This document shows, in pieces, positions 17,843 through 46,655 of a DNA stretch of 64,000 bases. Numbering within the stretch: the first letter of the stretch is position 1; each line of letters starts with the position of its first letter. The stretch comes from Nitrospirota bacterium (GTDB taxonomy: Bacteria > Nitrospinota_A > UBA7883 > JACRGQ01): positions 31,150 to 95,149 of the forward strand of contig JAJRYD010000031.1 of NCBI GenBank assembly GCA_024275955.1. The letters run 5' to 3'. The notes beneath the pieces were generated by a model. The model had not been told where the DNA came from, ran no database searches, and saw only the letters and a program-made list of their open reading frames with translations. Both the position numbers and the translations under genes were made by a program.

Positions 17843-17972
17843 GGGACTGTTTCCAAAAGAGTTTTTAAGCGTTTTAAAGGAGAAGTTCATTTTCTAACTT
17901 CGTAAAAACAGAGGCTTTAGAGATTGGCGATTAACAGCAAAATCAAATTTATGCTATTCGGCAACAGCCCCC
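17843..17972 (+). mobile_element. MITE-like element, copy A
   Basis: One of six copies of a ~129-bp non-coding element. It starts GGGACTGTTTCC and ends in GGCAACAGCCCC, whose reverse complement GGGGCTGTTGCC is the partner inverted repeat. The inner blocks AAAAGAGTTTTT, AAGTTCATTTTCTAACTTC and AGCAAAATCAA are shared with the other copies. CTTAT flanks both sides (17838-17842 and 17973-17977) if the element ends one C later than the consensus. It contains no open frame of its own. Confidence 0.8.
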
Positions 17973-18020
17973 CTTATAGAGGGGAGAATCAGCCAGATCT
18001 CACCTCTGCGCAGAAAGCAA

Positions 18021-18908
18021 TTAACTGCTAAAAGAGCGTATTTCCGCCAAAAGGTCGTCGCCTATCTTTCCATTTTTTCTATAGCGTTCCATAGCTTTTC
18101 CGCAGTCGCAGGTTCTCTTGGCACCGGAAAGTTTTTGAAGCGTTGTCTCTAGTATCTCAGGTAGCAGGGTTATAGACCGCTCTACCTTATTCTTTTCATC
18201 TTCTCTCAGCATTCCCTCAAAAAGTTCGCCTTCTTTAAAAGACCGCTCTTTTATCCCTTCGGCAAAGTTGCTTATAAGGCATATTGATGAATAGCAGATT
18301 TCAAGCTCGCGGGCGAGGAACGCTTCGGTAGCAAGAGTCATCCCTACCATATCGGCTCCCCACTTTCTGTACATCTTTATCTCTGCTGGTGTTTCCAGCC
18401 TCGGCCCTTCCGTGCATAGGTACACTCCGTCGTTGTGATAATCGCAATTACCGGCAGAGTAAAGGGCTGTTATCAGCTCTTCCCTTATTTCTGGGCAAAA
18501 AGGGTTGCTCATCCTGATAAACCCAAGCCCCGAGTTTTTGTAATAGGTAGATTCCCTTTTCGTACTGCTGTCTATTATGTCATCGGGAATTACGAGGTCG
18601 CCCGGGTTTAGTCTTTGGTTCAAGGAGCCGGGTTGCGACCAAGAGATTATCTGTTTTATCCCCAGCTCCGCCATAGCCCATATATTCGCGCGGTAGTTCA
18701 CAAAGGGCGCTGTTACCTCGTACCCCTCCTCGCCGTGACGGGAGAGGAAGCGGTAGCTGTAACCATCTTTTTCGAATAGATGTATAGGCGCGCTTTCGCC
18801 AAACGGAGTGGTGACAGGATTAGTAGCTCTCACCGTGCCAAAAGAGTTTTGCGCCAAAAGGTCGTAAGCTCTGCTACCGCCGATAACGCCGAAAGTGGGT
18901 TTAGCCAT
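18021..18908 (-). CDS. mtnP: S-methyl-5'-thioadenosine (or thioinosine) phosphorylase
   Basis: A 295-residue cytoplasmic purine nucleoside phosphorylase of the trimeric PNP/MTAP family, which splits methylthioadenosine from polyamine or SAM metabolism. Family features are the GVIGGSRAYD start, LSRHGEEGY near residue 56, VNYRANIWAM, the TEGPRLETPAEI block near residue 168 and GADMVGMTLATEAFLARE near residue 185. The usual P in GMT-x-PE is A here (TLATEA), and substrate choice between MTA and MTI cannot be decided by eye. A C-terminal extension of ~25 residues (CDCGKAMERYRKNG) is longer than usual. It is an isolated gene between two MITE copies. Confidence 0.85.
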   Translation of the reverse strand: MAKPTFGVIGGSRAYDLLAQNSFGTVRATNPVTTPFGESAPIHLFEKDGYSYRFLSRHGEEGYEVTAPFVNYRANIWAMAELGIKQIISWSQPGSLNQRLNPGDLVIPDDIIDSSTKRESTYYKNSGLGFIRMSNPFCPEIREELITALYSAGNCDYHNDGVYLCTEGPRLETPAEIKMYRKWGADMVGMTLATEAFLARELEICYSSICLISNFAEGIKERSFKEGELFEGMLREDEKNKVERSITLLPEILETTLQKLSGAKRTCDCGKAMERYRKNGKIGDDLLAEIRSFSS

Positions 18909-19113
18909 TCGTCTATTCTAGCTTTTATCCGGCAGATTTTCTTTGAGAAACTTATAGTTCTATTCGGCGGGTAGGCTTCGCTTTAGTATTGTTCTCGACT
19001 GCTCTGTAGCCCTTCACGGCTAGCAGGTTTTTTTATTTTGCCGCAAAAGCGCAAAGAAGAACAGCAAGCTCCCAGCCTGTAAGGCGGTAACTGCGCTATG
19101 TGAATAGCTTGAA
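18909..19113. other. Intergenic region with short stems
   Basis: No gene was seen in this 205-base stretch ahead of MITE copy B. It has several short complementary blocks (for example AGCCCTTCACGGCTAGC near 19010 and GCCTGTAAGGC near 19075). The mtnP promoter probably lies at its start on the reverse strand. Confidence 0.35.
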
Positions 19114-19242
19114 GGGACTGTTTCCAAAAGAGTTTTTTGAGCAGTTTAAGGGAAAGTTTATTTTCTAACTTCTTTAAAATAGAACCGTTAGAGAGTGGCA
19201 AGTTGTAGCAAAATCAAGATTGTCTTATTCGGCAACAGCCCC
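19114..19242 (+). mobile_element. MITE-like element, copy B (exact 5-bp duplication)
   Basis: A 129-bp copy with GGGACTGTTTCC at the left end and GGCAACAGCCCC at the right. Identical TTGAA pentamers flank it exactly (19109-19113 and 19243-19247), which is the cleanest target-site duplication in the family. Inner sequence shares AAAAGAGTTTTTTGAGC and TTTATTTTCTAACTTCTTTA with copy C, so A/B/C are close relatives. Confidence 0.85.
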
Positions 19243-19299
19243 TTGAAGTGTCGTCTATATTTGCCGCTGGCGGCTAGTCGTCCTGCGCCGTTCGCGTAG

Positions 19300-20094
19300 C
19301 TACCAGTCTTTTTCCAGTTTTCGTTCGCGGAATTTTTGCCGCCGGACATCTTTTTGAATATTTTTTTCGTCTTGCTTTAGCGCTTCAAGCACTCTTTTCA
19401 TTTCATCAGGTTTCATCTTCCCCGGCTTTCTCTCTTTTTGAGCGGATGATTCTCTTTTTTGTTTATCTTTGCCTTGCTTAGGTTTTCCCTGTTTGTCTCC
19501 GTTTTTTTCATCTTTTTTGTTCTGCTCACTTTGTTTATCGTTCTCTTTTTCCTTCTTATCTTTTTTATCTTGTTTATCTTCGTTTTTTTTGTCTTTCTTT
19601 TCTTTATCTTTGTCGTCTTTTTTCTTTTGTTTTTTTAGCTCTTTTAGTTTTTGAAGGGTATGTTCAAGATATTCTTTAGCGGTGCTATTGGAAGGTTCTT
19701 TGTAGAGTATTTTCCTGTAGCTTTGAGCGGCATTGGTAAGTTTTTCTTCTGCCGGTTTGATATCGCCTTTTCCAAGTTTTTTAACTCCAGCCCAGTAGCT
19801 TGCGTTGCCGAAATTTAGAAGAGATTTCTCGGCCAGTTCTTTTTTTTTGGATCTCAGCAAAGGCTCATACAGTTCAGCCGCCTTATCGTACTCTTTGAGC
19901 CTGTAAAGAGCGTTCGCTTGGTTGTATTTTGCGACTTCCGAATCTTTTTGCTCTCTTGCCGCCGAGTATTGCTCCAAAGCTTCCTTGTAATCGCCTTCAC
20001 GGTAAAGCTTATTGCCCTCTTCAATTCTTGAAAAATGTTCATCGCCAAACCCTAGAAGAAAAGGGACGGCAAAAAGCACGGCAAGCTTTTTCAC
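19300..20094 (-). CDS. BatC-like TPR protein with Lys-rich tail
   Basis: A 264-residue protein with a short signal-like start (MKKLAVLFAVPFLLGFG), three TPR-type repeats (about residues 20-150, for example EEGNKLYREGDYKEALEQY), then ~80 residues of almost only Lys, Asp, Glu and Gln, and a conserved end (KNIQKDVRRQKFRE followed by EKDW). That layout matches BatC/BatE proteins of the Bat (aerotolerance) loci, which are periplasmic or membrane-linked with VWA partners. No BatA or BatB lies beside it here. Its ATG overlaps the stop of ppx by 4 bases on the same strand. Confidence 0.65.
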   Translation of the reverse strand: MKKLAVLFAVPFLLGFGDEHFSRIEEGNKLYREGDYKEALEQYSAAREQKDSEVAKYNQANALYRLKEYDKAAELYEPLLRSKKKELAEKSLLNFGNASYWAGVKKLGKGDIKPAEEKLTNAAQSYRKILYKEPSNSTAKEYLEHTLQKLKELKKQKKKDDKDKEKKDKKNEDKQDKKDKKEKENDKQSEQNKKDEKNGDKQGKPKQGKDKQKRESSAQKERKPGKMKPDEMKRVLEALKQDEKNIQKDVRRQKFRERKLEKDW

Positions 20095-21056
20095 AAAGTT
20101 GTCCCCTTAAATAGGCCGTCATTCACCGCGAGCAGTATCCCTTCCCTCAGTCCCGCGTCACTTACTGTAAGTAACTCGGCATCAAAATTTTCCATAATAG
20201 AAAGGATTATGCCGAATCCGGGGATTATGAGGTCTTCGCGTCCGTTTTTGAGAGAAGCTATTTCGCCTAGCTCTTCAATGGTCATTTCGGCTACCTGCTT
20301 TAGAAGGGTCTCCACGTCGTTTCTGCCGAGAATCGCGTTGTTTATCAGGCTGTGGTCGTACTTTTTTAGATTCAACTGCATCGCGGCGATAGAGGTTACA
20401 CTGCCGGCCGTTCCTACAAGCATGAACGGCTCTTTAATGTCTAGTTTTTTCTTTACCGTTTCTATTTCGCCTTTAAGGTATTTCTTCAGGTTGCCGAACT
20501 CATCTCTTATCAAAGGAGCTTTGCTTATAAAAGTTTCGGCAAGCGGTACAACCCCAAGGCTGGTACCTGCCTGCCGTATATCGCCGTCGCCGTTTTTGTA
20601 GATAAACTCGGTGCTGCCTCCGCCGATATCGAAAAGAAGCATGCTCTTGCCTTTAGTCTCTATTACTGTCTCCACCCCTTTGAGCGAAAGCTCGGCCTCT
20701 GTTTCCCAGCCGATTATATTCAGGTCAAGCCCTGTTTTTTCTCTTAAAAGTTTTTGAAAGTCCGCTTTGTTGCCGGCATTTCTTACCGCATGGGTAGCTA
20801 CTGCCGCGAGCTGGTACGGTTTCATTTTCGACGCTCCGTCGATAAGGCTCTCTATCCCGTCAACCGCTCTTTCCATCGCTTTGTCGGCAAGCAGGCCTGT
20901 GCTGTGCATCCCCTCGCCAAGCCTTGTTATAATTTGCGACGAGTGCAGAAATTTAAGCCGGTCTCCGTCCAGTTCCGCCACAAGTAGCCGGATGGTGTTA
21001 GAGCCTATGTCGAGCGCTCCCAGTTTTTCAGACGGCATAGCTTTTTTTAAAAACAT
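20091..21056 (-). CDS. ppx: Ppx/GppA-family phosphatase
   Basis: A 321-residue cytoplasmic protein of the exopolyphosphatase/guanosine pentaphosphatase family, ASKHA fold. It has the phosphate-1 motif LDIGSNTIRLLVAE (near residue 15), ETEAELSLKGVE (near 117), the phosphate-2 motif LLFDIGGGSTEFIY (near 139) and VGTAGSVTSIAAM (near 213). At ~320 residues it is the short form without the C-terminal HD extension. It hydrolyses polyphosphate or pppGpp; which one cannot be decided by eye. It is followed by the BatC-like gene with a 4-base overlap and lies head to head with the GHMP kinase gene. Confidence 0.88.
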   Translation of the reverse strand: MFLKKAMPSEKLGALDIGSNTIRLLVAELDGDRLKFLHSSQIITRLGEGMHSTGLLADKAMERAVDGIESLIDGASKMKPYQLAAVATHAVRNAGNKADFQKLLREKTGLDLNIIGWETEAELSLKGVETVIETKGKSMLLFDIGGGSTEFIYKNGDGDIRQAGTSLGVVPLAETFISKAPLIRDEFGNLKKYLKGEIETVKKKLDIKEPFMLVGTAGSVTSIAAMQLNLKKYDHSLINNAILGRNDVETLLKQVAEMTIEELGEIASLKNGREDLIIPGFGIILSIMENFDAELLTVSDAGLREGILLAVNDGLFKGTTL

Positions 21057-21114
21057 TTTTTCTTTTCATCAGTTTGAATATAGACTAAAAGCTGAATTTC
21101 AATCAATAAGAGAT

Positions 21115-22089
21115 ATGAAGATAATTGTAAAAGCTCCAACAAGGATAGATATTGCCGGTGGCACGCTGGATATACAGCCTCTCTCGGCGGTTTTTGCTCC
21201 TTCGGTATGCGTTAATGTAGCGGTTAACCTTTATGCTACGGTCTCTGCCGTTAAAGGCAAAAAGGGGAGGGCTGTGGTTCATTCGTCCGCGCTTGGGAGA
21301 ACTATTGTCTATTCAAAAGTTCCGGAGAAAAGCAAGACGCTATTTCATAGACTGCTTGATATATACCCTGCCGATGGCTGGGAGTTTACGGTCGATACTC
21401 TCTCGCCAGCGGGCGCAGGGCTTGGCGGTTCGTCGGCTATGCTTATAGCTTTCATAAAGGCTGTGCTAAAGGCTACCGGCAGGAGGGTAGGAAAAATGGA
21501 GGTGCTGGAGATAGCCAAAAATATCGAAGCGAGGCATTTGGGCATACCTACCGGAGTGCAGGATTATCTGGCGGCGCTTAACGGCGGGCTGAACGTGATA
21601 GAGTCTACAACCGCCGGTTTTGTGTATGGAAGGCCCAAGCTTGACGGCAGTGAGATAGAAAAAAGGGTACTGCTTTTTTACTCTGGAAAATCGCGGATTT
21701 CGGGCGATGCCAACTGGGCGATGTTCAAAAAAGCGCTCGATGGCGATAAGGCTATGGTGAATGTTTTTAGAGGCATCGCCAGAAACTCGCTGAAAGTTCT
21801 AGAGGCGTTGGAAAAGAACAGCTGGAGCAAGGTAGGAGCTTGCTTGTTAAAGGAAAACGGTTTAAGGGAAAAGCTGGGGCGGTTGGTAGTTCCGCCATCG
21901 CTTGCAAAGATTTTTAAAAGCACACAAAAGCTTGGCGGTTATTCTAAAATATGCGGCGCCGGCGGCGGCGGATGTTTTATCGTCTGGTGCGGCCCGAAAA
22001 AAAGGGAGGCGATAAAAACCTTTATGCGGGAAAAAGGGATGACGCACCTAGATTTTAAAGTAGGCAGAGCGTCTGTCTCTACGCGCTAG
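21115..22089 (+). CDS. GHMP-family sugar kinase (HddA/galactokinase-like)
   Basis: The frame is open much further upstream through the antisense of ppx, but the ATG at 21115 starts the family's own N-terminus (VKAPTRIDIAGGTLDI), giving 324 residues. The ATP-binding signature PAGAGLGGSSAM is near residue 100, IPTGVQDYLAAL near 146 and the C-terminal GAGGGGC near 280. It resembles D-glycero-D-manno-heptose 7-phosphate kinase and FKP-like kinases, which phosphorylate sugars for surface polysaccharide. The exact substrate is unknown. Its 3' end overlaps the convergent PQ-loop gene by 11 bases. Confidence 0.85.
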   Translation: MKIIVKAPTRIDIAGGTLDIQPLSAVFAPSVCVNVAVNLYATVSAVKGKKGRAVVHSSALGRTIVYSKVPEKSKTLFHRLLDIYPADGWEFTVDTLSPAGAGLGGSSAMLIAFIKAVLKATGRRVGKMEVLEIAKNIEARHLGIPTGVQDYLAALNGGLNVIESTTAGFVYGRPKLDGSEIEKRVLLFYSGKSRISGDANWAMFKKALDGDKAMVNVFRGIARNSLKVLEALEKNSWSKVGACLLKENGLREKLGRLVVPPSLAKIFKSTQKLGGYSKICGAGGGGCFIVWCGPKKREAIKTFMREKGMTHLDFKVGRASVSTR

Positions 22090-22354
22090 CTTCGCTTTTT
22101 GTCTCTACGGGAAAATAGATAAATTTTAGAATAACAAGGCAGACAAGGAAGTTTATTATAAGGTTTGTCATCAGCGGCCAGTCCCACCCAAGCTCGAAAG
22201 GAACGTAGAGAAGGAACGACAGTTCGCCTATGAACCATAGCCAGATAAATAGCGGCGGGAGGCCTTTGCTATGCCCGTCTTTATACGATTTGACAGCTTG
22301 CGGCAGGCCACACGCGGCGAAACAAAAGAAGCCTATCCGCCCAAAAACGGTAAT
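22079..22354 (-). CDS. PQ-loop repeat membrane protein starting at ATT
   Basis: A 91-residue open frame on the reverse strand with no ATG, GTG or TTG in its first ~70 codons. It begins best at ATT (22354-22352), five bases after a perfect AGGAGG; a TAG lies four codons upstream in the frame. The product has three hydrophobic segments and a clear PQ-loop signature: ACGLPQAVKSYKDGHSKGL followed by PPLFIWLWFIGELSFLLY. PQ-loop/SWEET-like proteins carry small solutes across membranes, usually as dimers of such half units. The ribosome site overlaps the stop of the CBS gene, so it ends that operon. ATT starts are known (infC) but rare. Confidence 0.75.
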   Translation of the reverse strand: MTVFGRIGFFCFAACGLPQAVKSYKDGHSKGLPPLFIWLWFIGELSFLLYVPFELGWDWPLMTNLIINFLVCLVILKFIYFPVETKSEASA

Positions 22355-22363
22355 GCCGGCCTC

Positions 22364-22768
22364 CTATTCGTTTAAAGGCCCTTTATTATCCGCCAGCGAC
22401 TTTACAAGGTCGGTAAGTGATATTATGCCGAGAAGGCTGTTTCCTTCTGTTACCAACAGCCTTGATACGCCTATATCGGCCATCTTTTTTGCCGCGTATT
22501 TTATATCAAGATGCTGATGCACGTTGTAGCAAGGTTTGCTCATAGCGTCGAATACGTTTAGCATTTCTATCTGTTCTTCCCCGGCTATAACCTTTTTCGC
22601 TATATCAGAAAAAGTAAGTATGCCAAACGCGTCGCTCTCCTTTCGCGGCAGGATTATCAGCGACTTGACATTTTTCTCAAGCATAAAGTTCATCGCGTCC
22701 ATCAGCGGTGCCATAGCGTCTATCGTAATAACGTTCGTGACCATTAGGTCTTTTACCTGCACACTCAA
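22364..22768 (-). CDS. CBS-domain pair protein
   Basis: A 134-residue protein made of two CBS motifs (about residues 5-60 and 75-130). It starts VKDLMVTNVITID and holds GILTFSDIAKKV and GIISLTDLVKSL, the standard strand-helix ends. Such Bateman modules bind adenine nucleotides and regulate partners. No extra domain is present. Its place directly after the PII-like gene and DUF1538 genes suggests that it senses energy status for the same membrane system. Confidence 0.88.
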   Translation of the reverse strand: MSVQVKDLMVTNVITIDAMAPLMDAMNFMLEKNVKSLIILPRKESDAFGILTFSDIAKKVIAGEEQIEMLNVFDAMSKPCYNVHQHLDIKYAAKKMADIGVSRLLVTEGNSLLGIISLTDLVKSLADNKGPLNE

Positions 22769-22780
22769 AACGTTTTCTCC

Positions 22781-23125
22781 TTATATAAATTCTTCGGCTT
22801 CTTTCCTTAAAATCGAAAGCTGGCTTTCAAGCCCCACTACCGAATCTATAGGAAGCGAAAAGCATATTCCGTGTCCAGGTTCCTTAAGGTTTCCGGCATC
22901 GTAAATAGCTTTCATTATTTCGCCACATTTGTGTTTTTCTACCAGCATAACAAGCGCTTCCTGCGGTTTATCTAGTGCTAGACCAAGAAAGGTTTTTGTC
23001 TCTTTGTGGCCTGTTCCTCTCGCGGAGAGTATAGTCGCTCCCGTCGCGCCATGCTCTTTTGCCCCGTCAATTATCCCTTGCATATGTTCTATCGGGCATA
23101 TGGTAAAAATCATGTTAAAACGCAT
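22781..23125 (-). CDS. PII-like signal protein of the DUF1538 type
   Basis: A 114-residue protein of the PII/GlnB-like ferredoxin-fold group. It lacks the canonical T-loop tyrosine. The fold is suggested by MIFTICPIEHMQGIIDGAKEHG, GATILSARGTGHKET and LVEKHKCGEIMKAIYDAG. PII-like genes beside DUF1538 membrane proteins are a recurring pair in bacteria, so it probably gates or reports on the two DUF1538 proteins upstream. What it binds is unknown. Confidence 0.75.
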   Translation of the reverse strand: MRFNMIFTICPIEHMQGIIDGAKEHGATGATILSARGTGHKETKTFLGLALDKPQEALVMLVEKHKCGEIMKAIYDAGNLKEPGHGICFSLPIDSVVGLESQLSILRKEAEEFI

Positions 23126-23146
23126 TTATTATCACCTCCTTTATTA

Positions 23147-23865
23147 TTATTCTCTTTTTATTAGTTTGGCAATGATTGAATAACTCAGTACAGATATCAT
23201 CGGAAAAACAGAAGCAAAAGCTATAAGACCAAAACCGTCTATGAGCGGGTTCCTTCCCGGAGTGTTTGTGGCCATACCTATGCCGATTGCCGTTACCAGC
23301 GGCACAGTGATGGTAGATGTGGTAACGCCGCCGGAATCGTAGGCGAGCGGTACTATCTCCTTCGGGGCGTAAAAAGTGAGAACAACAGCTATCAGGTAGC
23401 CGATTAGTATGTAAAGCCAAAGCGGGTCGCCGGATAATATACGGTATACCCCAAGCGTAAGGCCGACAGCGACACCGATGGCGACGGCGTTGCGCAGGTA
23501 AAAGCTTGGCAGAGCGCCGGCGCTTATCTCTTCGGCTTTTCCGGCTACCGCGAGTAGCGCCGGCTCTGCCATTGTAGTGGAGTAGCCTATGCAAAAAGCG
23601 AAGGCGAGAGCCCAGCCCTTAAGTTCCGGGCGCGAAAGCTTTTCCGCCATAGATTCGCCTACAGGGAAGATCGCCATATCGAGCCCTAATAAAAAGAAGT
23701 ATAGACCTGCCACAACCGCCGCAAAGCCGATTATTATTTTTTTGGGTTTGGGAGGCTTTGCTTTAGCACCGCGAACTGGAAGAAAAGGACGACAGCAAGC
23801 ACCGGAGCAACATCACGCAGGATAATTAGAAAGTCTGCTACCAGTGTGTTCAAAAATTCAATCAT
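23147..23865 (-). CDS. DUF1538 membrane protein, frame interrupted at an A7 run
   Basis: Across both frames this encodes ~239 residues parallel to the neighbouring DUF1538 protein. The ATG at 23865 overlaps the stop of the upstream gene (ATGA). The first 44 codons read MIEFLNTLVADFLIIL... to SLPNPKK and hit TAA just after seven A residues (T run 23738-23744 on the + strand). One more A would continue in frame as IIIGFAAVVAGLYFFLL and on to residue 239, with GYSTTMAEPALLAVAGKAE and VTTSTITVPLVTAIG. So it is either a frameshift mutation or a slippage-dependent gene. Six to seven hydrophobic segments are visible. Confidence 0.75.
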
Positions 23866-24554
23866 AGTACCGCTATTCCGTATGCCATTACGGTAATCAT
23901 CGGGGTTGGCGCGGCGAACGCTATCAGGCCGAATCCATCCACAAGAGGGTTTCTTCCGGCTATAGAGCTGGCAAGGCCTACACCGAGCGCGGTAACGAGC
24001 GGTACCGTTACGGTAGATGTGGTAACGCCGGCTAAATCGTAGGCGAGGCCTATTATCTCGTTTGGCGCAAAGAGAGTCATTATCATTACCAGTGTGTAGC
24101 CGGTAATGACGTAGTAGTGAACAGGGTGTCCTAATATTATTCTCATCGTCCCAACCGCTATTCCGCTAGCGACACCTATCGCCACGGTGTTTCTTAGCGT
24201 AAAGGCAGAAAGCTTACCTTCAGTTATTATCTCCGCCTTGTTGGCGATAGCTATCAGAGCCGGCTCTGCTATTGTCGTGGCGTATCCTATAGATGCCGCG
24301 AAAATAAGTAGCCACCATATATTTCCTTTTGCGGCGAACGAGTGGGCCATAGATTCGCCCAGAGGAAAAAGCCCTGCCTCCAGCCCCCGCATAAAAAGGA
24401 AAAGGCCGAAGACAACAAGAAAAAGGCCGAGTAGATATTCAAGAGGATGCTGGAAGCTCTCGCCTATCACGAAAATCTGAAAAAAGAGCAGTACCGATAC
24501 AAGCGGCACCACGTCGAGGAACGATTTGAAGAAGAGGTAAAAGAAGTTTTTCAC
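23862..24554 (-). CDS. DUF1538 membrane protein
   Basis: A 230-residue integral membrane protein with about six hydrophobic segments. Family motifs are LGLFLVVFGLFLFMRGLEAG, FPLGESMA, GYATTIAEPALIAIANKAE and VTTSTVTVPLVTALGVG. The same motifs recur in the downstream gene, so the two are paralogues that may pair. DUF1538 proteins are thought to be transporters, but the substrate is unknown. It overlaps the hydrolase gene by 4 bases and the second DUF1538 gene by 4 bases. Confidence 0.85.
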   Translation of the reverse strand: MKNFFYLFFKSFLDVVPLVSVLLFFQIFVIGESFQHPLEYLLGLFLVVFGLFLFMRGLEAGLFPLGESMAHSFAAKGNIWWLLIFAASIGYATTIAEPALIAIANKAEIITEGKLSAFTLRNTVAIGVASGIAVGTMRIILGHPVHYYVITGYTLVMIMTLFAPNEIIGLAYDLAGVTTSTVTVPLVTALGVGLASSIAGRNPLVDGFGLIAFAAPTPMITVMAYGIAVL

Positions 24555-25381
24555 TTCCCGCCTTCCGTAATACCAGCGAAATCTATGATGCTTCCGTAAT
24601 AGAGAGAAGGGTCGGATTCGTACATATCGACATGTCCGGCATTTTCGAATGTTACAAACTTTTTTGGTTCGTTTGCTTCCTCAAACAGTTTTAGCGAGTG
24701 GCGGTAATTTATTACGTTGTCGTTTTTGCCGTGAATGAGAAGAAGAGGGACCTTTAGTTTTTTTATTTCTAGCCCGTTATTAAGGGCGGATGATGCCAGT
24801 ATCCATATAGGCAGAGGCGAAAAGATATCTTTTGCAATTTCTTTAATGGAGTAGAAACAGCCTTCCATTATTACTCCGGCAGATTCGCGCATATTCGCAA
24901 GCTTTAGCGCCGGCGCGCCTCCGAGAGACTGCCCGATGATGATTATATTCTCAGGCCCAACCCCTTTTTTGTTTATCATAAAATCGTACGCCGCTAAACT
25001 ATCTTCCACTATCCCGTCTTTAGTGGGGTTTCCTTCGCTTTTTCCATAACCGCGAAAGTCGAAAATAAAGACTGCGAAGCGGTGTTCAAGATACCCTTTT
25101 ATTACGGGAAGCCTGTCGGAGATGTTTCCGGCATTGCCATGAATGTAGAGAATCGTTTTGCCGTTGCTGTTTGCCGAATTGAAAAACCAGCCATGTATTT
25201 TTTCTTTATCTGTTCCGACTTCAAGAAAGATATCTTCCGCCGTAAGGCCGATATCTTTAGGCAGGATGGTAAAATCTTTATCGGGGTAGAAAAGAGCTTT
25301 CGACTCGTACCATCTGCCGAAAATGAACATAAGAGTGACAGCAATAAAAATAGCCGAGATAGTATCTACTCCGTACCGCAT
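24551..25381 (-). CDS. Alpha/beta hydrolase, BEM46-like, membrane-anchored
   Basis: A 276-residue serine hydrolase with an N-terminal membrane anchor (about residues 8-22, TISAIFIAVTLMFIFG). The oxyanion HGNAGN motif is near residue 80, the nucleophile is in GQSLGGAPAL near residue 150, and the acid and His lie in HGKNDNVI (near 215) and ENAGHVDM (near 245). It belongs to the BEM46/YfhR type of unknown substrate. It is the first gene of the reverse-strand operon hydrolase, two DUF1538, PII-like, CBS, PQ-loop. Confidence 0.82.
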   Translation of the reverse strand: MRYGVDTISAIFIAVTLMFIFGRWYESKALFYPDKDFTILPKDIGLTAEDIFLEVGTDKEKIHGWFFNSANSNGKTILYIHGNAGNISDRLPVIKGYLEHRFAVFIFDFRGYGKSEGNPTKDGIVEDSLAAYDFMINKKGVGPENIIIIGQSLGGAPALKLANMRESAGVIMEGCFYSIKEIAKDIFSPLPIWILASSALNNGLEIKKLKVPLLLIHGKNDNVINYRHSLKLFEEANEPKKFVTFENAGHVDMYESDPSLYYGSIIDFAGITEGGK

Positions 25382-25628
25382 CCGTCAATAGTACTCCATT
25401 CCACACCTGCATTGCGGGTTTGCTTCTTGCAGGCGGCCACGCAAGGGCGTGGAGCGAGTAGTCGCAATGCGGAAGATATGGTTTGTAGAAATTCTATAGA
25501 ATCTTTGGCAACCGCACAGTCGCCGCCTTTGGCTCTGTTCTCTCTGGTTTCTCGCCTGCGAGATGCGCATCACCTGCAAGGTGTCAGGAACAGGTAGAAT
25601 TGCCAGCCTGCTTATCGTTAGGCTATAG
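25382..25628. other. Hairpin-rich non-coding island
   Basis: No gene was seen between the hydrolase start and MITE copy D. The stretch has many short inverted repeats, for example CACGC/GCGTG near 25440 and CTCGCCTGCGAG near 25553, and holds copy 2 of the second dispersed repeat. The hydrolase operon promoter should lie at its left end on the reverse strand. Confidence 0.5.
25437..25521 (+). repeat. Dispersed hairpin repeat, copy 2
   Basis: CCACGCAAGGGCGTGGAGC, then a spacer, GTAGAAATTCTA and CTTTGGC. The blocks line up with CCACGCAACGGCGTGGAGC, CAGAAATTCTA and CTTTAGCC at 46723-46808 in the same order and orientation. Confidence 0.45.
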
Positions 25629-25758
25629 GAGCCTGTTGCCGAATGAGATAAATTTGATTTTTCTACAAATTACCAATCTCTAAAGGCTTTATTTTTAAGA
25701 AGTTGGAAAATGAACTTCTTCTTAAAATTCTCAAAAAAACTCTTTTGGAAACAGTCCC
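25629..25758 (-). mobile_element. MITE-like element, copy D
   Basis: A 130-bp copy in reverse orientation: left end GAGCCTGTTGCC, right end GGAAACAGTCCC. TATAG flanks it exactly on both sides (25624-25628 and 25759-25763). It ends 92 bases before the proB start, so the proB promoter region may include its right end. Confidence 0.82.
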
Positions 25759-25850
25759 TATAGGTATAGTCTTTGTCGGCAATGACAAGATAGAGCGTTG
25801 CCTCATTCACCAGCGCCTCACCTGTGAGGTGTGTGGTAGGCTGTTTTGTT

Positions 25851-31228: not shown

Positions 31229-31357
31229 GGGGCTGTTGCCCAGTGAGATGAATTTGATTTCTCTACAAGTCGCCAACCACTAAAGGCTCTATTTTTCAAA
31301 AAGTTAGGAATGAACTTCCCCTTAAAATGCTCAAAAAACTCTTTTAGAAACAGCCCA
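31229..31357 (-). mobile_element. MITE-like element, copy E
   Basis: A 129-bp copy in reverse orientation, from GGGGCTGTTGCC to AGAAACAGCCCA. TTGAT flanks it exactly (31224-31228 and 31358-31362). Its right edge lies six bases from the stop codon of the small sulfite reductase gene. Confidence 0.85.
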
Positions 31358-36732: not shown

Positions 36733-36733
36733 G

Positions 36734-38156: not shown

Positions 38157-38178
38157 TTTTCCTCCTCCTTAAAGCCTT

Positions 38179-38998: not shown

Positions 38999-39080
38999 AA
39001 CAAAATAATTAACTCTCTCCTCTTTAAAACCTGTTCCCGTTCAGTATAAAAGCTTTTTTTTCAACTATCCACCAAATAAA

Positions 39081-39155
39081 TGGTAGGCACGGGCGGTTTC
39101 GAACCGCCGACCCCTTGCATGTCAAGCAAGTGCTCTACCCCTGAGCTACGCGCCT
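39081..39155 (-). tRNA. tRNA-Val (anticodon GAC)
   Basis: The reverse strand folds as a cloverleaf of 75 bases: acceptor AGGCGCG with CGTGCCT (one G-U pair), D arm GCTC-loop-GAGC, anticodon stem CTTGC with GCAAG around loop TTGACAT, T arm GGCGG with CCGCC and loop TTCGAAA. The discriminator is A and the CCA end is encoded. The anticodon is GAC, so it reads valine codons GUC and GUU. It lies 82 bases upstream of infC on the same strand. Confidence 0.95.
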
Positions 39156-39460
39156 TTGGTAAAGAGCGCAGACAGCCGAAAAGAGCCTACAAGGCAACCC
39201 GCTTTTATCAGGATTTACCAAGCGAGACATGATACTCAAAAAAAAGTGTTTCGGCAAGCCCCCATTTGTCGGTCTTCTCTTTACCGCTATTCCCCTTTGG
39301 GCAGAGCTTGTACCGCGGAGCTATTGCCGAAATGGTTTTTGGAGCATTTTACAAGAAAAGCTTATCTTTTTACCTTTTCAAAATGGGTGTTTTGGAAGTT
39401 GGTAGCAGGCTCACAGCCTCTTTTCAAGCTGTATGGCACTCTGTGTTGTGGGTGCCTAAT
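39156..39460. other. Intergenic region with no gene seen
   Basis: A 305-base gap upstream of the tRNA-Val/infC unit and before MITE copy C. It should hold the promoter of the tRNA-infC operon on the reverse strand. Short stems occur near 39300-39330. I see no gene. Confidence 0.35.
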
Positions 39461-39589
39461 GGGCTTGTTTCCAAAAGAGTTTTTTGAGTATTTTAAAGAA
39501 AAGTTTATTTACTAACTTTTTTAAAATAGAACCGTTAGAGAGTGGTAAGTTGTAGCAAAATCAAGATTGTCTTATTCGGCAACAGAGCC
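39461..39589 (+). mobile_element. MITE-like element, copy C (degenerate end)
   Basis: A 129-bp copy with left end GGGCTTGTTTCC and right end GGCAACAGAGCC, both altered from the consensus. The interior is nearly the same as copy B (TAACTTTTTTAAAATAGAACC and AGAGAGTGGTAAGTTGTAGC-like blocks). No matching flanking repeat is visible, so the edges have drifted. Confidence 0.7.
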
Positions 39590-39659
39590 GCCGCCTCTTT
39601 TAGCTGTACGGTGTTTTCAATATTCTCCCGCGCGGTTGACGTTTTAAGGCGCGCCGTTA

Positions 39660-40214
39660 TTATCCAGCAGTTTTTCTTGACGCTAGGCTGTGGGTGCATC
39701 CGCAGTAGTTCTGTCTTTTAAAGCCTAGTTCCCCTGATATCTGGCTCGATATTTTGAAGCCCTCTTTTTTCTTGAAATTAGCTTCGTAGAAGGTGATCTC
39801 GGCAGACTGTCCGTCAGCCGCCTTTTTGCCAGCACTGTTTATCATTACCGCGTCTTTGTGGGGCGATACCGAAAGCACAGCTCCAAAACGGTAGATTTTT
39901 AGCTCCGCCGCTTTTTTTGCCGTACTTTCCATCCGTTCCGATACGCAAAGTTCGCACCTTTTCCCTTTTTCCGGCTCGTTTTCGAGGCCCTTGGTCATCT
40001 CAAGCCATTTTTCCGGCTCGTACTCTCCTTCTATGAGAGGCAGGTTTTCGATTTTTGCCAGCTTTTTCACCTCGGTTAGCCGGAAAAGGTACTCCTTTTT
40101 CGGGTGTATGTTCGGGTTGTAGAAATAAAGGGTGAGGTTGAACTCCTTTTTTAGCTCCCGCAAAGGGTATGGGGCGCACGGGGCGCAACAGAGATGCAAA
40201 AGCAGTTTTTCCAT
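39660..40214 (-). CDS. queH: Epoxyqueuosine reductase QueH
   Basis: A 184-residue cytoplasmic enzyme that performs the last step of queuosine synthesis and replaces QueG. Cysteine motifs are HLCCAPCAPYP at the start, RCELC near residue 86 and YCGCTHS near the end, matching QueH (DUF208) 4Fe-4S ligands. NPNIHPKKEYLFRLTEVKKL and LSVSPHKDAVMIN are conserved. It is a single gene on the reverse strand and has its own promoter region. Confidence 0.9.
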   Translation of the reverse strand: MEKLLLHLCCAPCAPYPLRELKKEFNLTLYFYNPNIHPKKEYLFRLTEVKKLAKIENLPLIEGEYEPEKWLEMTKGLENEPEKGKRCELCVSERMESTAKKAAELKIYRFGAVLSVSPHKDAVMINSAGKKAADGQSAEITFYEANFKKKEGFKISSQISGELGFKRQNYCGCTHSLASRKTAG

Positions 40215-40250
40215 TGGATTGATTATATTCTTTTGTCTCTAGCTTAAAAT

Positions 40251-40271
40251 AGGAGGAATGCCACCCCTCCT
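40251..40271. terminator. Possible intrinsic terminator hairpin
   Basis: AGGAGG at 40251 pairs with CCTCCT at 40266-40271 around a nine-base loop and is followed by TTTT on the + strand. It lies upstream of queH and far from any + strand gene end, so its role is uncertain. Confidence 0.3.
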
Positions 40272-40509
40272 TTTAGGTTTGGGAGGTTTAAACTTCTTTG
40301 GTAAAATGGGGGAAATGGTTCTGGCAATTCAGTTGACATCTTTTCCTTTCGGGTAGCGTGCCGAATCATCTCTGCTGGAGCATGCGGTTATTTGAGACAT
40401 TTTGCCTGTTTTTTTGGCACAGCGGTTTTATAAATTTGGGGTGTTTACGCGCGCTGTTGGAGCAGGCTCCACTGCTGTAAGGTAGGAAAGGGACAAAGGT
40501 TTTTAAAAA

Positions 40510-41673
40510 GTGAAGATTAAAATATTACTGGTAGATGACGATAAAAGTACCAGACTAATAATTGAAAAAAAGCTCAGCCTTAAAGGATACCGGATAGTTA
40601 CTGCCGAGAGCGGGGCTAAAGCTCTGGAGATTCTCAAAAACGGCGGGATAGATATGGTTCTTCTTGACCACTTTATGCCGGAGATGGACGGCATGGAAAC
40701 CTATAAAAAAATAAAAGAGGAGGTGTCGCCGTCTTTGCCTGTAGTGATGATGACAGGCAATAGCTCTTTGGATGTCGCCGTGGAATTTATGCGTCTTGGC
40801 GGTAAAGATTATCTCCAAAAACCTGCCGGCTGGGATATGCTCGAATTAAGGATAGAGCAGGTAATGGAAAAAGAGGGGCTTTTAGCTCAAACGCGCGAGG
40901 CAAAAAATGCCAGAGTGATAGCCGAAGAGGCCAACCGTGCCAAATCGGAGTTTCTTGCGAATATGTCGCACGAATTAAAAACGCCGATGCATGCCATTTT
41001 AAGTTTTGCCGAGATAGGGCTGGGGAAGGTGGAAACTGCCGATAGAGAAAAAATAAAAGGTTATCTGGAGCGTATAGCCGAAGGCGGCAAAAGGCTAAAC
41101 ATACTTTTAGGCGACCTTCTGGAGATGGCCGAGCTTGAAGCCGGCAGGATAGAACTGCACCCAAGAGAAATGAACCTAAAAGAAATAGCCCAGTCTGCCA
41201 TTGGCAGGTTAGTCGAGCCGGCAAAAGAAAAATCAATTTCTCTTGAGATGCTTCCTTCCGATATAAACTTAACAGCCTTTTTTGACGGTGAAAAGATTAT
41301 TCAGGTAATAGGCAGAATGCTTGGCAATGCTATAAAATTTGCTCCCAAAGAGAGCACTATTATCATTTCTTTCGATGAGATGCTTATACCATCCAAAGAA
41401 GATGGCCCCGATGTTCCGGCTGTCGTTATATCTGTTAGAGATAATGGGATAGGCTTGCCGGAAGATGAATTGGAAACGGTATTCGATAAATTTGCAATCT
41501 CCAGCAAGACGAACAATGGCGCCGGCGGTAAAGGGCTGGGGCTGGCTATCTCTAAGGAGATTGTCTTGACCCACGGCGGGCAGATATGGTCGGAGAACAA
41601 CAAGGATGGCGGAGCAAAATTTTCAGTAGCTTTGCCTAGAGACCAGCTGGTAAAGCAAGTAGCGGTTTTATAG
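40510..41673 (+). CDS. Hybrid receiver-histidine kinase
   Basis: A 387-residue soluble protein with an N-terminal receiver (residues 3-120; acidic pair in LLVDDDKST, phospho-Asp in VLLDHFMPEMDG near residue 54), a HisKA dimer/phosphoacceptor (His in FLANMSHELKTP near residue 157) and an HATPase domain (about 270-380, RMLGNAIKFAP, VRDNGIGLP and GKGLGLAIS). No membrane segment or sensor is seen, so it probably relays from another protein. It starts at GTG. It is alone, with radA 98 bases downstream. Confidence 0.9.
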   Translation: MKIKILLVDDDKSTRLIIEKKLSLKGYRIVTAESGAKALEILKNGGIDMVLLDHFMPEMDGMETYKKIKEEVSPSLPVVMMTGNSSLDVAVEFMRLGGKDYLQKPAGWDMLELRIEQVMEKEGLLAQTREAKNARVIAEEANRAKSEFLANMSHELKTPMHAILSFAEIGLGKVETADREKIKGYLERIAEGGKRLNILLGDLLEMAELEAGRIELHPREMNLKEIAQSAIGRLVEPAKEKSISLEMLPSDINLTAFFDGEKIIQVIGRMLGNAIKFAPKESTIIISFDEMLIPSKEDGPDVPAVVISVRDNGIGLPEDELETVFDKFAISSKTNNGAGGKGLGLAISKEIVLTHGGQIWSENNKDGGAKFSVALPRDQLVKQVAVL

Positions 41674-41771
41674 CAGTAGCTGTTTTCGCCTTAGCATAAC
41701 GGTAGCTATATTCTATAGCCTGTTCCCATTGTTGTAAGTTCAGACCTTCTGGTAGATAATCTTTAGAAGCT

Positions 41772-43145
41772 ATGAAACCTCTAAAAAAAGCGAAAACGCT
41801 TTACGTCTGTCAGGAGTGCGGCTCCACGAGCGGCAAATGGATAGGCAAATGCCCCGATTGCGGAAGCTGGAACAGCTTTGTAGAAGAAACGGTTAGGGCA
41901 TCGCCGTCAAGGCGGGGAGGCATCTCTCCGCATCTGGGGTTTGTGGTGCCGAAGTCGCTTGGGGAGCTGAATGAGGAAGAGGCGTCATACTCCAAGTCCG
42001 GCATAGGGGAGCTGGATAGAGTGCTTGGCGGAGGCGTGGTGGACGGCTCGCTGGTGCTTATAGGCGGCGACCCGGGTATCGGCAAATCTACCCTCGTCCT
42101 CCAGCTTTGCGGAAAGTTTTCCGACGGCGGGCAAAAGGTTTTGTATGTAACCGGAGAAGAATCTGCCAGACAGGTAAAGCTTAGGGCTACACGGCTTGGC
42201 GTTGAGTCTGATTCGCTTTTTATATACCCGGAAACCAACCTTGAATTGATAATAGGGCAGATAGCGGAGCAAAAGCCCCAGTTCGTGGTTATAGATTCTA
42301 TCCAAACAGTCTTTACCGAAACGGTAAGCTCTGCTCCAGGCTCGGTATCTCAGCTAAGGGAATCTACAGCACTTTTGATGCAGACCTGCAAGACTTTGCA
42401 TGTTCCGGTATTTCTTGTCGGGCATGTTACCAAAGACGGGGCGATAGCAGGCCCCAGGGTGCTTGAGCATATGGTAGATACGGTGCTCTATTTCGAGGGA
42501 GACCGCGACCATTATTTTCGGATATTGCGGTCTGTCAAAAACCGTTTCGGCTCTACCGACGAGATAGGGGTGTTCGAGATGCTGGAGGGAGGGCTAAAAG
42601 AGGTCAAAAACCCTTCGGAGCTTTTTATATCGACAGAAACAGCCGCCTCTAGTGGTTCTATAATTACCTGCACTTTATCTGGAACAAGGCCGATACTGGT
42701 AGAGCTACAGGCGCTCGTAACGCCGACGAACTTCGGCAACCCTCGGCGTACCGCTGTAGGGTTCGACTATAATCGTGTGATACTTCTATCTGCCATTTTG
42801 CAAAAACGGGCTGGGCTTCTTCTCGACGCGGAAGATATATATGTCTCTGCCGCCGGAGGGGTAAGGGTTAACGACCCCGGCTCCGACCTTGCGCTGGCGG
42901 CCGCTATCGCTGGGAGTTTTAGAAATATTACCACCGGCAAAGATACAGTGTTCATAGGCGAAATAGGGCTTGGGGGCGAGATAAGGCCGGTATCGTCGCT
43001 GGAGCTAAGGCTAAAGGAAGCCGAGAGGATGGGGCTTAAAAAAGCGGTTATCCCAAAGGCAGGGACAAAAGATATCAAGACAGGCAAAGGGATTGAAGTT
43101 ACGAAGATAGCCGATGTCGAGTCTTTGTCGGATATTATCGGGTAG
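41772..43145 (+). CDS. radA: DNA repair protein RadA
   Basis: A 457-residue protein with an N-terminal C4 zinc finger (CQEC and CPDC), a RecA-like ATPase with Walker A GDPGIGKST near residue 101 and the RadA signature KNRFGSTDEIG near residue 255, and a Lon-like C-terminal domain with GGVRVNDPGSDLA. It helps branch migration in recombination. The domain order and length are standard. Confidence 0.96.
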   Translation: MKPLKKAKTLYVCQECGSTSGKWIGKCPDCGSWNSFVEETVRASPSRRGGISPHLGFVVPKSLGELNEEEASYSKSGIGELDRVLGGGVVDGSLVLIGGDPGIGKSTLVLQLCGKFSDGGQKVLYVTGEESARQVKLRATRLGVESDSLFIYPETNLELIIGQIAEQKPQFVVIDSIQTVFTETVSSAPGSVSQLRESTALLMQTCKTLHVPVFLVGHVTKDGAIAGPRVLEHMVDTVLYFEGDRDHYFRILRSVKNRFGSTDEIGVFEMLEGGLKEVKNPSELFISTETAASSGSIITCTLSGTRPILVELQALVTPTNFGNPRRTAVGFDYNRVILLSAILQKRAGLLLDAEDIYVSAAGGVRVNDPGSDLALAAAIAGSFRNITTGKDTVFIGEIGLGGEIRPVSSLELRLKEAERMGLKKAVIPKAGTKDIKTGKGIEVTKIADVESLSDIIG

Positions 43146-43214
43146 CGTTTCTTAGTCTTGGGCACCGCGTTGCCGGTTTGACATAGATTACTGTTTTGCG
43201 TGATAATTTCCGTT

Positions 43215-43688
43215 ATGTCTCAGATAAAAATGATTTTTAGAAAGTCGGTCGCTTTCTTTACTGCGGTTCTATTTCTATTTATGCCTATCACCCCTTCCGT
43301 AGCGGCTCTGTGTAGCGGTGCTAGCTATACGCAAGATGCTTTACTGCAGGATGTTCCAGAGATTCCGCACAGCAGCATGAACGGGGCCGATTACGAGTGC
43401 GGGCATAGCATGGGGCATCAGACAGGGCAAGAGACGGGACACCACGATAATCATAAGTGCGAACACTCTGGCGGTGATGTGTGCCGGCACGCGACGAAAG
43501 GCTATTCCATTACCAGCTGTTCGGTCTCTGGCGAATCTCTCGTGCCTGTCCTTATAACGGTGCCGGATCTTATACCAGCCTCGCGGCCTGAGCTGATATC
43601 TGCGGAGATAGTCGTCTCTATTAAAAATATTTTAACGGCTGTCTCTGTTGGCTCTTCCCAAACAGTTTACCGTCCCCCAATCGTCTAG
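43215..43688 (+). CDS. Exported His/Cys-rich protein, DUF2946-like
   Basis: A 157-residue protein with a signal peptide (FFTAVLFLFMPITPSVA). A patch near residues 56-84 is rich in His, Cys, Met and Gly (ECGHSMGHQTGQETGHHD, NHKCEHS, CRHATKG), which fits metal binding. A downstream hydrophilic stretch and a short hydrophobic end follow. DUF2946-type proteins have this layout and occur beside copper genes. I prefer the ATG at 43215 to the GTG at 43200. It is the first gene of the copper module. Confidence 0.6.
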   Translation: MSQIKMIFRKSVAFFTAVLFLFMPITPSVAALCSGASYTQDALLQDVPEIPHSSMNGADYECGHSMGHQTGQETGHHDNHKCEHSGGDVCRHATKGYSITSCSVSGESLVPVLITVPDLIPASRPELISAEIVVSIKNILTAVSVGSSQTVYRPPIV

Positions 43689-43845
43689 CCTCTCTTAATA
43701 GTCTTTTTAATCTTTCGCCACACCTGCGTTCGTCCGTTTTTTCACGGAGCTTCGCGTGGGGCAAAGGGTATCTAAAATTATAAACGGTTACCGTGCTACT
43801 GCCGTGCTTTGCGGTTGCGCGGCGCCGTTCGCATGAGGTTAAAAA

Positions 43846-45000
43846 ATGAGAAGATTTTATCTGTTAATAATGCTTGTGGTCTTGTTGCTGCCTGCCACGG
43901 CGTTTGCTTATGTCGGGCTATGTTGCGGGAAGTGCGGCGGCAACATGCCGCTAAACACTCTTGGTGCCGGAGTGCCGGAAACGAACGAGTTTCGCCTAAA
44001 GATAAGCCCTATGCTAATGAAAATGGACGGCCTGCTGGATGGAACCAGCTCTATAGACGGCAACAGCCTTCTTGGGATGCCTGCCGCCGGAAAATCTATG
44101 GCTGTGCCTACTAAGATGGATATGAACATGGTGAACTTTGCTCTTGGCTACAGTTTTACCGACGACTTTTTCGGCGGAGTTATGTTTATGCACAAAAAGA
44201 ACGAGATGGATATGAAGTTTAGCTCGATGATGGCTGGGAGTACGGGACAAAGCGGTTTTACCATGAAGTCGCAAGGCTTTGGCGACACTATGCTTATGAG
44301 CAAATACCGGCTTTATTATGACGACCCGCTAATACCTACAAAGCAGGCATCGCTTTTTTTCGGGTTGAGCATGCCGACAGGTTCTATTGAAGAAAAGAAC
44401 ACGGAACACCCGCTTACAATGAGGCAGAGCGAGCAGTTGCCATACTCCATGCAGCTTGGTTCCGGCACTTACGACCCGACTGTTGGAGTAGTTATGCAGC
44501 AGTCGGCCTCGCCGTTTTGGTGGGGGGGTAATTTTCTCTACACCACAAGGATAGGAAAGAACAGTAGAGATTACGCTCTTGGCGACGAACTGAATTACGA
44601 CATCTATTTCATGCGTCAGCTTAGCTACAACTTCCTTTTGCACTTTCAGCTAAACGGAAAACAGTGGGGGAAGATAAAGGGCGAGATGAACGAAGCGGTA
44701 ACGGGAGCTTCCGGCAGATCTACTAAGAACGACGGTTCATCTGCATATATGACACCATCGTGGGATCCGAACAACTACGGCGGTCACAAAGTTTTGGGAA
44801 CTATCGGCATGCAGTGGCAGCCAAAGAGCCTTCATATCGTAGAGCTTGCTGTCGGCGTTCCGCTTTATCAAAACCTCAACGGCCCGCAGTTGAAAGAGAC
44901 GCAAAGGATAACGCTTACCTATTACATCGAAATCCCCACAAGGAAAAGCAGACGGCACCCCGATTTCCTTGAAAAAGGGAAAAGCAAACTTGGTTTTTAA
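43846..45000 (+). CDS. Outer-membrane beta-barrel protein, Met-rich, copper-associated
   Basis: A 384-residue protein with a signal peptide (LLIMLVVLLLPATAFA) followed by an N-terminal CCGKCGG motif. The rest shows alternating aromatic/hydrophobic strands ending in a C-terminal TLTYYIE-type strand, typical of barrels of the phenol-degradation MetA/DUF transporter group. Methionine is very frequent at residues 45-120 (for example MKMDGLL, MDMNMVNF, MFMHKKNEMDM), which suggests a copper(I) surface. It lies in an operon with a c-type cytochrome, TlpA and Csp1-like protein. The substrate is inferred only. Confidence 0.65.
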   Translation: MRRFYLLIMLVVLLLPATAFAYVGLCCGKCGGNMPLNTLGAGVPETNEFRLKISPMLMKMDGLLDGTSSIDGNSLLGMPAAGKSMAVPTKMDMNMVNFALGYSFTDDFFGGVMFMHKKNEMDMKFSSMMAGSTGQSGFTMKSQGFGDTMLMSKYRLYYDDPLIPTKQASLFFGLSMPTGSIEEKNTEHPLTMRQSEQLPYSMQLGSGTYDPTVGVVMQQSASPFWWGGNFLYTTRIGKNSRDYALGDELNYDIYFMRQLSYNFLLHFQLNGKQWGKIKGEMNEAVTGASGRSTKNDGSSAYMTPSWDPNNYGGHKVLGTIGMQWQPKSLHIVELAVGVPLYQNLNGPQLKETQRITLTYYIEIPTRKSRRHPDFLEKGKSKLGF

Positions 45001-45016
45001 TATTGGAGAATCGAAA

Positions 45017-45292
45017 ATGAAGAGATTACTGATTCTATCCGCAATGATGCTTGTTACCGCGTGTGCCGGACGGCAGACCCCGATACCTAACGCCGAATCG
45101 CCAGAGGCAAAACTTTACGCAGAGAAATGCGATGCCTGTCATTCGTTACCGCACCCTAAACGGCATAGCTATGCCAAGTGGCAACAGATGACCAAACTGA
45201 TGGAAAGCCATATTAAGGAAAAGGAGATGGCACCGCTCAGCGACGGCGAAAGAAAAACCATTATGGGATACCTTAAGGAAAACGCGCGGTGA
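45017..45292 (+). CDS. Small lipoprotein c-type cytochrome
   Basis: A 91-residue lipoprotein with lipobox LVTAC and one haem-binding CDACH motif near residue 38. LSDGERKTIMGYLKENA resembles the C-terminal helix of monohaem cytochromes. The axial ligand is probably a methionine (KEMAPLSD). Start: ATG at 45017 with TTGGAG upstream; the frame opens earlier. It overlaps the TlpA-like start by 4 bases. Confidence 0.78.
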   Translation: MKRLLILSAMMLVTACAGRQTPIPNAESPEAKLYAEKCDACHSLPHPKRHSYAKWQQMTKLMESHIKEKEMAPLSDGERKTIMGYLKENAR

Positions 45293-45858
45293 CACAAACG
45301 CAAAAAGGCGGGCGTCTGGCCGGCATGGCGGTTGTCGCGGTGGTTGTGACAATGCTTGCTCACGGCAGTGCGGTAGCCGGAGATCTTTTTGGGGAGATCG
45401 GCGTAACACTTCCTAAAGTAAGGGTGGAGGCTCCGGCCTTTACCCTTGCTGGAAGCGGCGGCGGGCAGAAATCGCTAGCCGGCTTTAAAGGCAAAATAAT
45501 ATTGCTCAATTTCTGGGCGACATGGTGCGTGCCGTGCAGGGCGGAGATGCCGTCTATGGAAAAGCTTTGGCAAAAGTATCGGCATAAAGGTTTTGCCATT
45601 GTCGCTGTATCTGTCGATAGAGGTAACAGTGATGCGGTGCGCAGGTTTGTCGATGAGCATCGGTTGACCTTTACCGTACTGCTGGACCCGGATGGAGAGG
45701 TGAGGAACAGTTACGAAGTGAACGCCTTTCCGACAAGCTACCTGATAGGCAAAGACGGAAAGTTTTTGGGAAAAATTATCGGCGAGCGGGAATGGAACAG
45801 CCTGCCCGCATTTGACTTGATTGAAAGTCTTTTAGAAAAGGAGAAAGAAAATGAATAG
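45289..45858 (+). CDS. TlpA-like periplasmic thiol-disulfide oxidoreductase
   Basis: A 189-residue protein with an N-terminal signal or anchor (AGMAVVAVVVTMLAHGSAVA), then a thioredoxin/AhpC-TSA fold. The active site WCVPC is in LLNFWATWCVPCRAEMPSM near residue 78. The cis-proline is in AFPTSYLIG. It starts at GTG within the cytochrome gene and may keep cysteines of the module reduced, or help deliver copper to cytochrome oxidase as TlpA/Sco-like proteins do. Confidence 0.88.
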   Translation: MTQTQKGGRLAGMAVVAVVVTMLAHGSAVAGDLFGEIGVTLPKVRVEAPAFTLAGSGGGQKSLAGFKGKIILLNFWATWCVPCRAEMPSMEKLWQKYRHKGFAIVAVSVDRGNSDAVRRFVDEHRLTFTVLLDPDGEVRNSYEVNAFPTSYLIGKDGKFLGKIIGEREWNSLPAFDLIESLLEKEKENE

Positions 45859-46297
45859 AAGAGAACTGATGATAGCTACTGGTGGCGCGATTCTGGCATC
45901 GACAGTCGGCGATGCTTTTGCCGAGGGCCGTAAGGGCGTTATGGAACATGGTAAGCATCTGATGGTAAGCAAGGTCAATACCGATATTGCCGTTTCTGCC
46001 GCCGAGTGCATTACCACCGGCGAAGAGTGCGTGCGGGTATGTATCGAGACGATGGCAACGGGCGACCCTTCTATGGCGCAGTGTGCTAGGTCGCTACAGG
46101 CGTTAATGTCGTCTTGCGAAGCGCTTCAGATAATGGCTATCCACGATTCCGCTTTCCTTAAAGATATAGCGGTGGTAGCCAAAAAGGTTTGTAAAGATTG
46201 CCAAGAAGAGTGTATGAAGCATAAACACCATAAACAATGCATCGAATGCGCTAACGCCTGCGTAAAGTGCATAGAGCTTTGTAATAAATATATCTAA
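45851..46297 (+). CDS. Csp1-like four-helix copper-storage protein
   Basis: A 148-residue protein with a Tat-like signal (NRRELMIATGGAILAST). The mature part has cysteines spaced to line a four-helix bundle (SAAECITTGEECVRVC, CARSLQALMSSCEAL, KVCKDCQEECMKHKHHKQ, CIECANACVKCIELCNKY), the known pattern of Csp copper-storage proteins that bind many Cu(I) ions. About 13 Cys and four His are present. It overlaps the TlpA gene by 8 bases, and a hairpin lies after its stop. This gene fixes the copper role of the operon. Confidence 0.85.
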   Translation: MNRRELMIATGGAILASTVGDAFAEGRKGVMEHGKHLMVSKVNTDIAVSAAECITTGEECVRVCIETMATGDPSMAQCARSLQALMSSCEALQIMAIHDSAFLKDIAVVAKKVCKDCQEECMKHKHHKQCIECANACVKCIELCNKYI

Positions 46298-46311
46298 ACT
46301 GTTCTAGCGTG

Positions 46312-46335
46312 TCTCCCAAGGAATATCTTGGGAGA
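46312..46335 (+). terminator. Hairpin after the copper operon
   Basis: A perfect 9-bp stem (TCTCCCAAG with CTTGGGAGA) with a 6-base loop starts 15 bases after the Csp1-like stop. A T-run (ATCTTTT) follows a few bases on. It probably ends the operon transcript. Confidence 0.55.
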
Positions 46336-46526
46336 TGCGCATCTTTTGAGCTGTCGCAGGGAGTACTGTGGGGCGTGGGAGGCATATCTTTTATTTCATC
46401 TCTCTTTTTGTTGAAGAGAAGCGCGAACGCCCACGCAACGCGCGCAGGCGGCAGCGGTGCAATGCAACTTGTCCCTAAAGTTCAAAAAGATTTATCTACC
46501 GCCAGCGAGAGCCGTCGCACCTGCTA
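46336..46526. other. Hairpin-rich non-coding island
   Basis: No gene was recognised between the terminator and MITE copy F. G/C-rich stems occur near 46428-46450 (CCCACGCAACGCGCGCAGG). A long open frame here has no family features. Confidence 0.4.
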
Positions 46527-46655
46527 GGGGGCTGTTACCGAATGAGACAAGCTTGATTTTGCTGTAAATCGCCAAGTTCTAAAGCCTCTGTTTTTACGAA
46601 GTTAGAAAATGAACTTTCCTTTGAAACGCTTAAAAACTCTTTTGGAAACAGCCCC
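46527..46655 (-). mobile_element. MITE-like element, copy F
   Basis: A 129-bp copy in reverse orientation: GGGGCTGTTACC on the left, GGAAACAGCCCC on the right. CTAG occurs at both junctions (46524-46527 and 46655-46658), so the duplication is 4 bases or partly hidden by the end G/C bases. It closely resembles copy A in the interior (GTTAGAAAATGAACTTTCC region). Confidence 0.82.

Follow-up and report, generated by a model that had tools for sequence, protein, structure and literature searches.

A 129-bp repeat family with inverted ends and 5-bp target duplications in the genome of a Nitrospirota bacterium

Several kinds of short, dispersed repeat have been described in bacteria. MITEAba12 of Acinetobacter is about 113 bp long and AT-rich, has 40% intact target site duplications (TSDs), which are 9 bp long, and resides together with its parent, ISAba12, with which its identity is confined to the ends (PMC6382973). 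RUP, Correia and ERIC elements are about 100-200 bp long, non-coding or nearly so, present in up to more than 100 intergenic copies, and have inverted ends and TA-type termini or targets (PMC2229807). The Tn3-derived miniature elements (TIMEs) are non-autonomous, carry 38-bp terminal repeats and measure at least 262 bp (PMC4133298). Among insertion sequences, IS1634, ISH3 and IS701 make duplications of 4-6 bp, and their published termini begin with C (IS1634) or CRGT (ISH3) or read ---YACT (IS701) (PMC2266710).

Here we analyze six short repeats in a 64,000-nt stretch of DNA from a Nitrospirota bacterium (the window). These are almost certainly copies of a MITE family, mobile and without genes of its own, and the 129-bp family is a further example of this known kind of bacterial element insofar as it is short, lacks a transposase gene, has terminal inverted repeats and a TSD of fixed length, occurs in dispersed copies and inserts as a unit. 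It resembles MITEAba12 in being AT-rich and non-coding, with short imperfect inverted ends and scattered copies, but MITEAba12 has a parent IS, whereas no parent of the 129-bp element was found in the host draft assembly or in the genomes of its class, and with a duplication of 5 bp it cannot be of the 9-bp type that MITEAba12 represents. It shares with RUP, Correia and ERIC elements the features listed above other than their TA-type termini and targets, in place of which its ends are GGG...CCC and its target is the 5-bp N-T-W-A-N. The duplications of IS1634, ISH3 and IS701 are compatible in length with its 5 bp, but its ends read GGGRCTGT. The family accounts for some 140 repeats, most of them intergenic, in a genome whose bacterial class has been little sampled, and its ends and 5-bp duplication provide a precise target for finding the missing transposase.

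Anatomy and copies of the 129-bp element

Copies measure 128-131 bp and end in an imperfect inverted repeat, GGGRCTGTTKCCRAAW. The preliminary description of this DNA had noted these inverted repeats, which are real, but gave their extent as 12 bp where we find about 16 bp. There are two classes of copies, a main type (100 copies) and a sub-type (14 copies), and in both the 16-bp terminal repeats exceed those of shuffled sequences (p 0.003 for the main type and <0.001 for the sub-type), while past position 16 the similarity of the left and right ends is at the chance (shuffle) level. As had been proposed, the element encodes no protein: it is short and without a transposase gene, and its T homopolymer runs vary from 5 to 8 T among copies, which shifts the frame from one copy to another and so rules out a conserved reading frame.

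All six copies that the preliminary description listed in the window are present in the positions and orientations given there, with the end of copy A corrected to 17971 and the start of copy F to 46528; a decayed seventh fragment had been missed (Table 1). The TSDs reported for copies B, D and E are exact 5-bp repeats; that of F agrees at four of five bases, and the CTTAT of A is present but follows an extra base. The six copies have a mean column identity of 84% in an alignment, and the 19-bp left end GGGACTGTTTCCAAAAGAG, allowing up to 3 mismatches, occurs at 6 sites in the window versus 0 in 100 shuffles. None of the copies in the window interrupts a long open reading frame with a Pfam match.

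Table 1. Copies of the 129-bp family in the window and locations of two other repeat families. Window position equals position on contig C18 minus 31149.
Feature	Position	Strand	Flanks and remarks
MITE copy A	17843..17971	+	repeat CTTAT; at the right end an additional C precedes it
MITE copy B	19114..19242	+	TSD TTGAA, exact
MITE copy D	25629..25758	-	exact TSD, CTATA on the element strand (TATAG on +)
MITE copy E	31229..31357	-	exact TSD, ATCAA on the element strand (TTGAT on +)
Seventh copy, decayed left-hand fragment, 88 bp	about 39317..39404	+	49 bits; adjoins copy C; contig C18:70466-70553
MITE copy C	39461..39589	+	right end degenerate/mutated; without TSD
MITE copy F	46528..46655	-	CTAG; 4 of 5 flanking bases agree
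G018 MITE copies	L116:1181-1330, L114:1919-2069 and others		internal palindrome GTTCGAGGTG..CACCTCGAAC
~290-bp repeat family, host genome	L172:143-438, L036:1188-1487, L056:1816-2095, L061 (two copies), L104, L106, L018, L017		

The host genome is assembled as 2.45 Mb in 56 contigs, and copies were counted in 447 kb of it. An iterated profile search of these 447 kb found 140 or more copies and fragments, including 117 of full length, bearing out the earlier expectation that six copies in the window imply many genome-wide. Using copy B as the query gave 163 first-look candidates in the host genome; the 40 of these that were scored are 84-100% identical and, with the exception of one short reverse-strand fragment, nearly all full-length. 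End motifs are likewise abundant: the right-end 14-mer TTCGGCAACAGCCC (up to 2 mismatches) occurs at 241 genome sites versus 10 for the reversed control, and GGGRCTGTTKCCRAAA, with no more than 1 mismatch, at 206 sites versus 0 for its control.

Identity to the nearest neighbour ranges from 75% to 100% among the full copies, and 31 of the 117 are at least 98% identical to a sister copy; from this we conclude that the family spread repeatedly, and in part recently. The recent spread that had been suggested thus accounts for these 31 copies, but others share about 75-86% identity with the copy closest to them, and the spread has therefore been long-lasting.

Target duplication and empty sites

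An exact 5-bp flanking repeat is present at 55 of the 94 strictly delimited copies, where 1.3 would be expected by random pairing, and a further 14 of the 94 have 5-bp flanks with one mismatch; flanking repeats of 4 bp (3 copies) and of 6 bp (2 copies) do not exceed background. Target sites have the consensus Y-NTWAN-R, in which a pyrimidine precedes and a purine follows the 5-bp duplication, and the site tends to a palindrome, with T at position 2 and A at position 4 of the duplicated 5-mer each in 38 of 55 cases. Younger copies more often retain their target repeats: exact TSDs flank 36 of 50 copies having a sister at 95% identity or more versus 2 of the 12 most isolated copies.

Empty sites were sought by joining the two flanks of a copy, with one of the 5-bp repeats left out, and comparing the product with the rest of the sequenced host DNA examined. 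Taking out the copy at C11:49303-49431 with one AAAGA leaves an intact ~290-bp repeat that is 93% identical over 180 bp to an insert-free copy. The copy at C23:18104-18231 (ATAAA) also interrupts a ~290-bp repeat, and its rejoined flanks match other copies of that repeat at 92% over 141 bp, while the copy at C29:59858-59986 is inserted within another copy of the 129-bp MITE itself. The paralogous empty sites demonstrate that the element inserts as a unit; it has a defined length and duplicates exactly 5 bp of its target. Copies are strongly biased against open reading frames, as an open frame of at least 150 codons runs across 14% of the reconstituted sites versus 74% of sites drawn at random from the same DNA (p about 4e-37).

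Transposase search and a G018 family sharing the ends

We infer that the mover of the 129-bp element is a DDE-type transposase, which, supplied in trans, would bind and cut the ends of the element. The preliminary description had held that movement would need a transposase from elsewhere recognising these ends. The search for an autonomous element combining GGGRCTGTTKCC ends with a transposase gene covered the host draft assembly and the class genomes, used the models PF01609, PF13610, PF13586, PF01526, PF13701 and NF033594, and included 40 contig ends; no such element was seen. In the host genome PF01609 matches four fragments, of which three are IS5-like with other ends and one is another remnant, and PF13610 and PF13586 have no match there. 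In the 23 class genomes examined, none of the matches to PF01609, PF13701 (IS1380) or NF033594 (ISNCY) has such ends. The 40 contig-end stretches were read because multi-copy insertion sequences break assemblies; by eye they hold IS200/605-like, IS3-like, IS5-like and further insertion sequences, none with GGGRCTGTT ends. We also read 189 of the 206 end sites, and all but 2 lie inside copies of the family; neither of these two flanks a transposase gene. One region, C27:17885-19029, resembled at first sight a full IS bounded by the two ends and proved to be an IS5-like remnant between two distinct MITE copies. Parents that are difficult to trace by similarity have been noted for other MITEs (PMC3852290), and a missing partner alone is therefore not extraordinary. 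The autonomous source element may now be lost, may not be assembled, or may be of a type outside the search.

Two other open reading frames were seen during the reading of contig ends. One, at L187:185-1480, is integrase-like (431 aa, rve-type by eye) and has a partial second copy at another contig end (L039:1724-1936); the other, at L171:1-550 (the start of contig C5), is a tandem-repeat frame with DKAKEKLQDETESKLG repeats.

The same ends recur in a genome of the same class but a different family, G018, which contains a MITE family of ~149 bp with 46 matches and 227 candidates. The ends of this element, GGGRCTGTYKCC, are those of the 129-bp family and its interior is unrelated; exact 5-bp TSDs were found at 8 of 20 copies versus 0.5 by chance. 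Partial matches in this genome, read for an autonomous element, were MITE copies only. Since the ends and the 5-bp duplication are the same, one transposase type probably serves both families, the G018 family having probably been moved by a transposase of the same type as the 129-bp family, and the likeliest reading is that one such type acts in the class. That two MITE families have common ends and unlike interiors suggests that the interiors are replaceable and that the enzyme reads the ends. A bolder idea, which we offer tentatively and consider doubtful, is that GGGRCTGTYKCCVAAW ends together with a 5-bp Y-NTWAN-R duplication belong to a family of transposases, so far uncharacterised, from which MITEs have arisen repeatedly in this class (two unrelated interiors, two host families, many copies each), and whose autonomous element is rare or lost.

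The end motif is not clearly enriched in the other genomes of the class. Within a set of 60 relatives, no genome but the host's contains the 129-bp element, and an exact scan with a 23-bp end pattern gave 0 matches in 84,980 other named species, so that within these searches the 129-bp family is specific to its lineage. One match on a viral contig was due to chance and fell within a glycine-rich gene, and a literature search for the end sequences returned unrelated matches only.

Alternative origins and the ~290-bp repeat

Tn3-family ends start GGGG and those of the 129-bp element start GGGR; its left ends moreover have TAAG at about position 38 (CACGCTAAG or CATGCTAAG there in two copies), which we take to resemble the inner end of Tn3 repeats. 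Together with its non-autonomy and its 5-bp AT-rich TSDs, as for the Tn3 family (compare PMC4133298), this would fit a TIME. We nevertheless regard a Tn3 origin as unlikely, given that the end similarity of the 129-bp element stops at ~16 bp where the terminal repeats of TIMEs extend over 38 bp (PMC4133298), that TAAG is absent from the G018 family, and that the Tn3 transposase that TIMEs need (PF01526) was found in 0 of the 23 class genomes examined, with positive controls. Still less probable is derivation from, and movement by, the resident IS5-like IS. Fragments of its transposase do lie at contig ends of the host genome, and one is situated between two 129-bp copies on contig C27, but each of these two copies has its own 5-bp TSD (CTACT and ACAAT), and the ends of the resident IS, TAGTCGTCCCTGAAAAAG..., are common to the ~290-bp repeat and not to the 129-bp element. 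These different ends largely refute the IS5-like derivation.

The copies are intergenic and alike in length, and the folding of individual copies is modest (z -0.3 to -3.1), as might be expected of a structured RNA gene family or a regulatory repeat spread by recombination and not by transposition. This we consider extremely improbable. Compensatory changes, which the preliminary description had proposed as the sign of a structured gene, are seen in 0 of the 8 pairs of a consensus fold of 80 copies, all of which lie within the terminal repeats; no Rfam match overlaps a copy, the sole match in the window being a tRNA, and the exact 5-bp duplications and nested insertions need a transposition-like step.

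The ~290-bp repeat, whose ends are TAGTCGTCCCTGA..TCAGGGACGACTA, has them in common with the resident IS5-like IS and, judging by these ends, is probably a MITE of that IS. Some of its copies carry 129-bp insertions. At the end of contig C51 (L107:394-684) the resident IS5-like IS has in turn inserted into a 129-bp copy, and insertions have therefore occurred in both directions.
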